NCBI RefSeq assembly: GCF_030930995.1
Contig: NZ_CP133217.1
Location: 3,648,001 to 3,712,000, forward strand
Direction: 5' to 3'
From: Thiothrix subterranea
Lineage (GTDB): Bacteria; Pseudomonadota; Gammaproteobacteria; Thiotrichales; Thiotrichaceae
Length of the DNA: 64,000 bases
The notes under the pieces were generated by a model, which worked only from the letters and a program-made list of their open reading frames with translations, had not been told where the DNA came from and made no database searches. This document shows positions 49,856 through 53,031 of the stretch, piece after piece (within the stretch, counting starts at the first letter, position 1; every line of letters starts with the position of its first letter). A program made the translations under genes and the position numbers.

Positions 49856-50609
49856 TCAATACCTAATGGCAGGCGTTTCAATCTTCAACCCATTGGAACG
49901 CGCCATAATATACGCCCCCAACAACTTACTTTCTTCCGCATCCGGCGCAAACGGCTCGGCACGCATCAACACCAAACATTGCTTAATCCGCAAGTCGAGG
50001 TTGGCCATTTCGCCAGTATCCAAACGGTAAGCAGGAAAACCGTTGCCCTGCCCCTGACTAATCTTTTGCCCGCGAATAAATTGCCCAGGATAACTGTCAT
50101 GGCAATGAGCGCACGACATATCAATCAAACCAAAGCGTATGTGGTAAAGTTCCTCGCCTTTTTTCAGCAAATCCGCCATTTCGCCATCGGTTTGCACATT
50201 CACCGGCTCACCAACCGCCAGATGACGCACCAACGTTTCCAAGGCAATCAATTCAGCAGAATAGGCTGGCAATGGCGTTTCGCCCGACTGCTTTTCACGG
50301 CAAATATTGATGCGATCATCCAACCGCACAATGCCGCCCAAAGCTTTATCGTAAATCGGGTAACGGGCAAGGTTTTTCACATCCAGCTTTTCACCCGTTT
50401 CACCGTGGCAACTGGCGCACGATTTGCCTGAAGCGGGTGACTGATTAAACAGCTCACGCCCTTGCTCGACCGCAATAAAGCCGGTGTTTTCGACCTCATC
50501 ATCTTGCATGGCACGGGTTTCTTCCTTAACGAACTCATACCCCGACTTAGCGGGCTTAGGCGCTTCTGCTAAGGCATTGCCAACGCTTGCCAGCAGCAAA
50601 CCACTCACC
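49856..50609 (-). CDS. soxA: Sulfur oxidation diheme cytochrome SoxA, exon 2
   Basis: SoxA with SoxX forms the cytochrome that attaches thiosulfate to SoxY. This part covers all of the mature protein: two CxxCH heme motifs (KSCASCHGETGE and MSCAHCHDSYPG), a conserved RINICREKQ, and the active-site cysteine in LDLRIKQCLVLMRAEPF. The first nine codons lie 1.9 kb upstream at 52539-52564, before a group II intron. Joined, they give 259 residues with a normal signal peptide (MITRTLSRLVSGLLLASVGN...). Without splicing, only a TTG at 50611 could start translation, giving a signal peptide without its basic N-terminus. Confidence 0.9.
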
Positions 50610-50645
50610 AATCGGGTAGCCGGAGGTTTCTAACCCCCAGCCCCC

Positions 50646-50681
50646 ACACCACCCTGCGTGCGGCTCCGCACAGGGCGGTTC
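50646..50681 (-). ncRNA. Group II intron domain V
   Basis: The hairpin ACCGCCCTG ... CAGGGTGGT with inner stem TGCG-GAGC-CGCA and a CG bulge fits the catalytic domain V. It lies directly after the maturase stop and before domain VI. Confidence 0.75.
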
Positions 50682-50682
50682 A

Positions 50683-51947
50683 TCAGCCGTTGGGATAACG
50701 GCACTTGACCCATTGATCCTTGAGCGACACTAACCCTTGTTCCTTCAGCCAGCGATTCGACAGCCCCATTTGCATGGCCTTGGTCTTTGCCAGCCGGTAG
50801 TAGCCTTTGGAACTCAACCCGATGCTGACCGCCAACCGTTCCGGGACGCCCAGCTTGATCAGGTTGCGGATGCGGGTGCGCGGTTTCCGCCATTGCTTGA
50901 GGTAGCACATGCGGATTCTGCGCCGTATCCAGTAGTCCAGCCGTTCCACCGGGTCAAAGATGACCAGAGCAAAGTAGTTCATCCAGCCGGTGAGGTATTC
51001 CTTCAGCTTCCGGTAGCGGTATTCCCAACTGACGCCCCACGAGCGGTTGGTCAGTTGGCGAATACGGTGCTTGAAGGCTGCCAGACTCGCAGGACTCCAG
51101 ATAAGGTGGAGTCCCCGGAACTGGTAGCCGAGGAAGCAGAGTTCGTTCATCGGCAGGACGCTGCTTTTGTCGGCGTTGACCGGCAACTTGAGGGTTTGCA
51201 GAAAGGTTTCGACTTCAGTTTTGATGCGCTGCCCTTCTGCAAGGGTTTTTGCGCCAATCACGAAGTCGTCGGCGTAACGGGCGAACCGGTAGCCTTTACG
51301 TTCCAGAAACCGGTCAAGGTCGTCGAGCAGGATGTTTGCCAACAGTGGCGACAGTGGACCACCTTGGGGGACACCCCGTGGGGTGGCTTCGATGTTGCCG
51401 TGGTGGCTGACACCTGCCCGCAGGTATTTGCCGATCAGGGTAAGAACATGCGGGTCGTTGACCCGTTTGCCCAGCCGGTGCATCAGCAGGTCGTGGTCTA
51501 CGTTGTCGAAGAATTTCGACAGGTCGATGTCCACGGCGTAACGGTCGCCGCGCCGGATGAAGCCTTGTACCGCCCTGATGGCGTGGTGGGCTGAACGGTG
51601 CGGACGGAAGCCGTAGCTGTGTTCCGAGAAGCTGGGGTCAACCAACGGTTGCAGGCGTTGTACGATGGCTTGCTGGATCAGCCGGTCGTTGACGGTGGGA
51701 ATACCCAGCAAACGGACACCGCCGTTCGGTTTGGAATCTCTACCCGTCTGACTGGCTGCGGGCAATAATAACCCGCCAGCAACCCGCGCCGGATGTTTGC
51801 CCAGTGGGCTTTCGCCCAGTCCGGGTAGGCGTCCAGCGTGATGCCGTCGATGCCTGCGCTGCCCTTGTTCTGCCGCACATGTTTCCATGCCGGGTGCAGG
51901 TTGGTGGGCAACAAAATGTCATTCAGTAAGGTTTGTTCCATGTTCAT
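50683..51947 (-). pseudogene. ltrA: Group II intron reverse transcriptase/maturase, frameshifted
   Basis: The intron-encoded protein is about 420 residues in two frames. The first runs from 51947 (MNMEQTLLNDILL) through KHVRQNKGSAGIDGITLD to VRRVEIP. The second continues with PNGGVRLLGIPTVNDRLIQQA, GFRPHRSAHHAI, DIDLSKFFDNVDH, GVPQGGPLSPLL and FARYADDFVI (the YADD catalytic site), then a maturase domain. A single base is missing near 51730-51734 (expected CCAAAACCG or CCCAAACCG). No HNH endonuclease domain is present. Either the gene is broken or the read has an error in a short homopolymer. A broken maturase would need help in trans. Confidence 0.9.
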
Positions 51948-52538
51948 GGTTGCTCAATGGATGTTGTGGGAGGCTCGCTGCCACGTTGACCGCCTTTGGC
52001 ATCGCTGCCGCCAAGGTCAGGTGGGCTGCTCCTCCCCTGATGTTCCGGCCTTCACCGTGTCCCCGCCATTACGCCGGGCGTTGGGCTACTATGCCGTCTG
52101 CTGACTTCTGCTTAATCACGGTGAAGATTGCTCCCGCCGCGCTGCCGTTTGTCATCCGGTTCGCTCGCTGCTGGCGGATGACATGCCAGAACGCCCAGAC
52201 CTTTTCTATACCCGCGCCTGTACGGGTTCACGACGACCGCTGGTTAAGCAGATCTCCCCGAATAAGAACATGAACTGTCACTGCACAACCCCGTCATTTA
52301 CTGTATCTCGCGAACCACTGGATTTCGTGACCTTGTGCCCACTCATCCCTGAGACTCAGCCTTGTATGACGTTTCTGTCCGTAGGCTCGCAGTTTTGCGC
52401 TTCGGCTTCCTTCCCACCAGCCCTCGCGGGGTGGCAGTTGCCGTCGGCTAGTAGTTATGCCGCTCTGAAAGCCAGAACGGTGGGTTCTCCTACAGGGGAC
52501 TTGCACCCCATGAGTTCATGCCCATGTCGGGCGTACAC

Positions 52539-52564
52539 AAGCGTGATAACGTGCGTGTAATCAT
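52539..52564 (-). CDS. soxA: SoxA exon 1 (start codon and signal-peptide n-region)
   Basis: ATG at 52564-52562 overlaps the soxX TGA by 4 bases type ATGA. It reads MITRTLSR plus TT, which joins G at 50609 to make Leu. This gives the basic n-region (two Arg) of the SoxA signal peptide. Without it, exon 2 lacks a normal start. The reconstruction is mine from the sequence. Confidence 0.8.
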
Positions 52565-53031
52565 TTGAGTGTTACCAAGTAAGCGATGACATCTTCCACA
52601 TCCTGAGCAGCGAGGAAGGTTCTGCCCTCGTACCCCTTGCCGGGGCGATTAATCAGGCTGGGGTCACGGTAAAAACCCGGCATAATCGAATTCGGATTCA
52701 AATGGCGCGAATCCACCACCCGCAAGCGCAATTGCGGCTCTGCCAAGCGCTTGGCAATGCCGGATAAGGGCGGAGCAATCGTGCCGTAAGCTTCCACGCC
52801 CTTAATCGGCAATTCGTGACAGGCTAAACAATTCCCGCGAGCCGCATCCGCAACGACTTTCTCGCCACGTAGCGCCTCGCCTTTTAAACCGCACAACGGC
52901 GCTGGAATTGAATAATTGACCATCTCCCATTTGCAATACGCTTCGGGCGGGGGCGGAACACCCTCAGCTTCCGCCGCCAAACCGGGTGTCGTTGCAAATA
53001 GCAGGAAAATTAAGGTGTTTACAGTTTTCAT
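52561..53031 (-). CDS. soxX: Sulfur oxidation cytochrome SoxX
   Basis: SoxX is the monoheme partner of SoxA. The 156-residue protein starts with a signal peptide (MKTVNTLIFLLFATTPGLAA), has the heme motif RGNCLACHELP, and the likely axial Met in NPNSIMPGFYRDP. An extra N-terminal part with two cysteines (YCKWEM, PLCGLKG) probably forms a disulfide. Its stop overlaps the soxA start. No soxYZ or soxB are in the window. Confidence 0.93.
   Translation of the reverse strand: MKTVNTLIFLLFATTPGLAAEAEGVPPPPEAYCKWEMVNYSIPAPLCGLKGEALRGEKVVADAARGNCLACHELPIKGVEAYGTIAPPLSGIAKRLAEPQLRLRVVDSRHLNPNSIMPGFYRDPSLINRPGKGYEGRTFLAAQDVEDVIAYLVTLK

Follow-up and report, generated by a model that had tools for sequence, protein, structure and literature searches.

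Group II introns of class C lie after terminators or at attC sites, as an earlier note on the DNA studied here had stated; a passage of PMC4424553 describes the attC position as the less frequent one, and the part of PMC8919778 that cites Robart 2007 holds that introns of this type do not break coding sequences. Within the class, the group IIC-attC introns (S.ma.I2 of Serratia, UHB.F1 and their relatives) have the consensus target TTGT/T (PMC7923331; here and below the slash marks the point of insertion) and in some cases enter attC-like hairpins, according to passages of that paper and of PMC8876359. Class C introns are further described, in section 10 of PMC8919778, as preferring the template of lagging-strand synthesis, a preference that a portion of PMC8914252 also reports for the endonuclease-less intron RmInt1 of Sinorhizobium meliloti, whose natural target is borne on an insertion sequence. 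In a large sulfur bacterium, Thiomargarita nelsonii, genes for sulfur oxidation contain or adjoin catalytic introns; according to the relevant part of PMC4853749, dsrA carries a group I intron, and the group II introns are of IIB2 type. In the open-licence literature, Thiothrix and group II introns appear together only in papers on other subjects, and a group II intron was found together with soxA only for Thiomargarita.

Here, we describe a group II intron within soxA of Thiothrix subterranea, in a stretch of 64,000 nucleotides (referred to below as the window), together with its copies in the rest of the genome. The soxA insertion is one event in a recent burst of this intron.

The intron in soxA and its exact ends

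The genes soxX and soxA form a pair on the minus strand of the window, in which the sequence ATGA both ends soxX and starts soxA, so that the overlap of soxA start and soxX stop claimed in the earlier note is indeed seen; the intron begins after 28 nt of soxA (Table 1). Two relatives from the genus, G001 and G012, possess an uninterrupted soxA site that reads CACGCTTGTTGGTGAG (...CACGCTTGT/TGGTGAG...); G004 differs there. Because of these empty sites, the intron can be assigned the ends given in Table 1, where it reads GTACG...CCCGAT on the minus strand and sits in TTGT/T, and the uninterrupted sites of other copies agree with the same ends. The boundary GTG...GATT drawn earlier is ruled out both by the empty sites and by intron relatives: it was wrong by 2 nt at the 5′ end and 1 nt at the 3′ end, and the insert measures 1,926 nt, not 1,929 bp. 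Joining the exons at the corrected ends yields a single open frame of 261 codons including the stop, which corresponds to a SoxA of 260 aa. The join proposed earlier was likewise open, but missed one Leu codon (260 codons with the stop as against 261). In the unspliced reading frame, a stop follows after 24 aa.

Table 1 Features of the soxX-soxA locus and its intron, in window coordinates.
Feature	Position	Strand	Evidence
soxX, upstream gene of the soxX-soxA pair	52561..53031	-	TIGR04485 75.6 bits
soxA exon 1, 9 codons and 1 base (MITRTLSRL), start overlapping the soxX stop	52537..52564	-	sequence, empty sites, join
IBS1 TTGT, target site (IBS3 is T at 50610)	52537..52540	-	T[TC]GT/T in 18 of 18 copies
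Group IIC-attC type intron, 1,926 nt, GTACGCCC...CTACCCGAT	50611..52536	-	empty sites, intron relatives, Rfam
Intron domain I region, RF02001	52267..52433	-	118.8 bits, E 8.9e-24
Proposed EBS1, ACAA in hairpin loop GCACAAGG of the D1 region	52333..52336	-	complementary to TTGT
Intron RF01998 region, D1-D4 piece	52047..52141	-	54.5 bits
Reverse transcriptase/maturase, N-terminal part	51678..51947	-	TIGR04416 positions 2-60
Reverse transcriptase/maturase, remainder in other frame	50683..51888	-	RVT_1 142.8 bits, GIIM 59.7 bits, TIGR04416 314.9 bits
Intron domains V and VI, RF00029	50611..50680	-	48.8 bits
soxA exon 2, remaining signal peptide and mature SoxA	49856..50610	-	TIGR04484 181.5 bits, PF21342

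We searched 57 genomes, including that of T. subterranea itself and 15 others of the genus, for this soxA. Close homologues (75-98% identity) were found in 12 of the 15, all with stop-free frames, and no close match was seen in the other three. Exon 2 is 98% identical to the uninterrupted soxA of G001, and the split gene shares 96% identity with soxA of T. caldifontis. The state of soxA in relatives had been named beforehand as something that could overturn the claim of an interrupted gene; in all 11 genes read out (the motif used missed the twelfth, L027) soxA is uninterrupted. Ten of these 11 begin with MI, and exon 1 of G001 and G012 is identical to that of the window. Together with the Rfam domains, these uninterrupted genes bear out the proposal that a group II intron interrupts soxA inside its signal peptide, in an orientation compatible with splicing. 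Among the 13 genus genomes that have this soxA, its own included, the intron lies in the gene in one.

Ribozyme and reverse transcriptase

A covariance-model search, which the earlier note had put forward as a check, recovered the domain I region, a D1-D4 piece and domains V-VI, all above the Rfam gathering score. The CGC triad read in domain V likewise fits, the 5′ strand being ACCGCCC; this triad is the class C form of the domain. The insert does encode a reverse transcriptase as claimed, recognised by RVT_1, GIIM and TIGR04416, but in the soxA copy a one-base indel breaks the frame into two overlapping ones. Ribozyme domains including V and VI, combined with an intron-encoded reverse transcriptase/maturase, place the element among group II introns. 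The best solved-structure match of the reverse transcriptase is the GsI-IIC enzyme (E 6.4e-103, C-terminal frame), and a Pfam scan of the encoded protein found no HNH endonuclease family, the combination expected of a class C reverse transcriptase without an endonuclease domain.

The pattern of insertion sites points to a short EBS1-IBS1 pairing with no IBS2, as in class C, where 3-4 bp of such pairing are joined by EBS3-IBS3; EBS1 is here a candidate, and EBS3 was not located. The candidate EBS1 loop is GCACAAG in L083, L084, L090 and L092 and GCACATG in L088, also at TTGT, among the rows readable with the pattern used. Our initial choice for EBS1, an ACAA in CATACAAGGC (52365-52362), was rejected: relatives at TTGT have CATATGAGGC, CATCTGAGGC, CATAGAAGGC or CATATAAGGC there. 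Over its first ~500 nt, the intron has counterparts at 73-76% on plasmids, mainly enterobacterial ones, among the matches listed (rows H4-H20 of 175 records). By target, reverse transcriptase and ribozyme, the intron is probably of the IIC-attC kind, while attC motifs fit only partly.

A recent burst of near-identical copies

The genome (G000; two contigs, 4.41 Mb) carries 18 full, near-identical copies of the intron and one relic. Only 12 columns vary among the 18 copies, nine of them by indels alone, one by both kinds of change and two by substitution. Since the copies are nearly identical, the spread is recent. An unbroken, stop-free reverse transcriptase frame of 423 codons is present in four copies and broken in the other 14; these frameshifts look more like unpolished repeats than mutation. 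Reverse transcriptase pseudogene calls in the assembly therefore need care, since the one-base indels (window 50683-51947 and in other copies) may be of this origin. The same feature is what favours the suspicion that the soxA insert is itself a misassembled repeat, a reading made scarcely credible by 18 distinct flank pairs, all T[TC]GT/T, and by the finding that, for 11 of the 14 copies outside attC-like hairpins, relatives have the site uninterrupted.

Leaving soxA aside, ten of the 13 remaining copies of that kind have an uninterrupted site in at least one genus genome, the empty site of L012 matching at 140 of 140 bases in both G001 and G007; no empty site was seen among the genus genomes for L005, L009 and L011. 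Within the 15 other genus genomes, matches to the intron itself occur in G007 alone, as a 3′ piece of 545 nt (97%) and a piece of 46 nt (87%). The relic (L019, L020; G000:C2 1263220-1263328) consists of two short pieces of 95-96% identity, ends in CCCGAT/TAGATTC and perhaps stems from an older round of the same intron family.

We extended the search to 369 genomes of the class, its own included, scoring two candidates per genome, and found matches in at least 54. At the 18 fetched loci with a readable 5′ end, GTAC stands at the same base in every case, preceded by TTGT at 15, by TGGT in L089 and L094 and by TTTG in L098. All 14 readable 3′ ends, among them the relic and the two pieces in G007, read CCCGAT and have T as the next base. 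The usual 5′ end of group II introns is GTGYG.

The 18 copies lie at attC-like hairpins (four), after a terminator (one), and in reading frames (11), with two (L008 and L009) unassigned. Genes were assigned by frame analysis of the joined flanks and Pfam scans of the separate pieces. Six copies in reading frames, one of them uncertain, are in the sense orientation: one lies in soxA, another 26 nt before the end of an SGNH-domain gene, and the others in an MbnB/TglH-type gene (L010), a SMEK/STAND gene and ORFs without a Pfam match at L014 and, less surely, L018. Five are antisense, in genes for a DUF349 protein, a DUF3144 protein, an IS91-type transposase (75 nt from the end), an autoinducer-binding regulator and phaC, and this orientation means that splicing cannot repair them. 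With six sense and five antisense copies, no sense bias was seen within genes, and the counts give no sign of selection for splicing. The idea that soxA is a special address for the intron finds no footing here, since it holds one copy of 18. The antisense copy L017 (G000:C2 3378794-3380720) lies near the start of phaC, which encodes a PHA synthase and is probably lost. On the second contig, an uninterrupted stretch of 140 nt (G000:C1 46475-46614) matches the L010 site at 93% and is a possible intact paralogue of the MbnB/TglH-type gene.

Target sites and replication strand

TTGT/T is the target in 16 copies and TCGT/T in two, so that positions -4, -2, -1 and +1 are invariant across the 18 sites and -3 is T or C. 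Upstream stem-loops are more stable at the 18 sites than at 309 controls (p 0.019), and at the 14 sites outside attC-like hairpins the difference is not clear (p 0.09). No stable stem-loop was found upstream of the soxA site, which ranks second weakest of the 18. L005 directly follows a terminator-like hairpin. Four copies (L002, L003, L004 and L015) follow related hairpin-forming stretches of -34 to -38 kcal/mol per 95 nt, which we call attC-like on account of their shared palindrome. The motif GTTRRRY fits two of these four junctions as against two of the 14 others, and RYYYAAC is found upstream of one of the four as against three of the 14; strict attC core motifs are therefore weak, and their excess at attC-like sites is not beyond chance with certainty.

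Five integron integrase matches lie above the cut-off in the genome, two of them 4-12 kb from L003 and L004; the matches are distant from L002 and L015. All five (G000:C2 2266577, 2271059, 3154819, 3159301 and 3163783) have an equal score of 399.1 bits, and within each group they are spaced by exactly 4,482 bp, which suggests tandem duplication or an assembly repeat. In an ungapped side-by-side comparison of the stretches around two of them (L111 and L112), 1,468 of 3,933 bases differ.

The dnaA gene lies at 0.732 Mb, and in the stretches sampled GC skew shows a weak change of sign at ~0.64-0.74 Mb and a clear one near 2.79 Mb, with the stretch at 1.70 Mb at zero. On this axis, the sense strand runs with the fork, that is, on the lagging-strand template, in 16 of the 17 chromosomal copies, the exception being L005, and 15 of 17 are co-oriented if the terminus is placed opposite dnaA (2.86 Mb). 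This test of orientation is weakened by the target motif itself being 57% co-directional, which leaves an upper tail of 0.001 (0.008 once the attC-like copies are set aside); these values are also to be read in the light of the idea having come from the positions of the copies before the dnaA/skew axis was measured, and of copies in one array not being independent.

Consequences for SoxA and thiosulfate oxidation

A second soxA, uninterrupted and with a higher TIGR04484 score than the split gene (210 as against 181.5 bits), is found at 483,024, with genes for SoxY-family and SoxZ-family proteins and for a SoxX-like cytochrome c next to it. The only soxB above the cut-off in the genome lies a few kb away, at 488,478. 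A soxY and a soxZ lie on each side of this soxA (L054 3015-3796 and 4725-5603), with protein sequences identical between the two sides. One branched SoxAXBYZ system is core to the genus according to a part of PMC8570282.

We consider it likely that a recent burst of a IIC-attC intron, involving reverse splicing into DNA, partial splicing at soxA and tolerance through the second sox set, accounts for these observations. Such a mobile intron would have reached 18 places after a recent entry into the Thiothrix lineage, its RNA and reverse transcriptase reverse-splicing into single-stranded DNA of the lagging-strand template, where nascent strands may prime copying. Its home sites would be integron attC-like hairpins, and soxA an off-site insertion at a bare TTGT/T, one of many. 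Maturase supplied in trans from intact copies may then aid excision of the ribozyme from some soxX-soxA transcripts, so that spliced RNA would give the 260-aa SoxA and unspliced RNA the 24-aa peptide. The parts needed for splicing are present (domains V and VI, IBS1, a candidate EBS1 loop and, in other copies, a whole reverse transcriptase frame). Useful splicing at soxA has about an even chance, and the output of split SoxA is probably reduced, not zero. The insertion would be tolerated by the cell because an uninterrupted soxXYZA with soxB exists elsewhere.

That same second cluster would do all the work if the insertion were a plain knock-out, with no useful splicing at soxA and SoxA lost, a reading that we rate as a serious contender, somewhat short of an even chance. 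The lack of a stable stem-loop upstream of the soxA site, the three genus genomes of 15 in which the split gene has no close match and the five antisense insertions, through which the burst also hit genes beyond repair by splicing, are all in keeping with it; the exons, IBS1, a plausible EBS1, domains V and VI and the reverse transcriptase/maturase frame unbroken in four of 18 copies argue against it. The absence of decay in exon 2 decides nothing on this point, since it fits recency as well as function. A different outcome, which we think unlikely, is that a IIC-attC lineage with a loosened need for hairpins is now colonising coding sequences at bare TTGT/T on the lagging-strand template and splices well enough in sense sites, such as soxA, to keep their function, so that a class C intron would be becoming resident in genes.

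Exon 2 might instead be driven by an outward promoter of the intron, as a passage of PMC8876359 reports for the IIC-attC intron S.ma.I2, to give a shortened SoxA from an in-frame TTG or GTG at 50611/50608. The frame is open from 50611, but this product (MVSGLLL...) would be unlikely to be exported because its signal peptide would lack the basic start, and we regard the reading as very improbable. Very improbable, too, is control of thiosulfate oxidation by splicing, on which the earlier note had suggested that this oxidation may depend. A sense intron within the signal peptide of the second gene of a soxX-soxA pair, with read-through ending after 24 aa, is what such control would look like, but the second, uninterrupted SoxA lies near the only soxB above the cut-off, the insertion occurs in one of 13 genus genomes with this soxA, and the near-identity of the 18 copies marks it as recent. 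Given an uninterrupted soxA, SoxY, SoxZ, a SoxX-like cytochrome and soxB elsewhere, and genus genomes in which nothing closely matches the split gene, sulfur oxidation is unlikely to depend on soxA splicing.

Discussion

The single insertion in soxA serves as a warning against reading regulation of sulfur metabolism into an intron of this kind; the surprise is the number of class C copies in coding sequences, less soxA itself. With one element in 18 near-identical copies, 11 of them with empty sister sites and with both orientations inside genes, the genome offers a natural experiment, which allows tests of how a class C intron chooses targets where terminators are absent, of bias towards one replication strand and of the extent to which splicing rescues genes at hairpin-free sites.

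Set beside the systems described above, the Thiothrix intron likewise joins a catalytic intron to a sulfur-oxidation gene of a sulfur bacterium, as in Thiomargarita nelsonii, although it is of IIC type and lies in soxA. It shares the lagging-strand preference of RmInt1 but enters many unrelated sites. With the terminator-targeting group IIC introns, represented by GsI-IIC for the reverse transcriptase, it has in common a class C enzyme and, at L005, a position directly after a terminator-like hairpin; it differs from them in its fixed TTGT/T target, mostly with no terminator. Its 5′ end, GTACG, departs from the usual GTGYG, and the GTAC is common to all 18 relatives read. Its closest counterparts are the group IIC-attC introns, with which it shares the TTGT/T target, some insertions at attC-like hairpins, a class C-like reverse transcriptase without an endonuclease match and the group II ribozyme domains, and from which it differs in that only four of its 18 copies are attC-like and 11 lie in reading frames.
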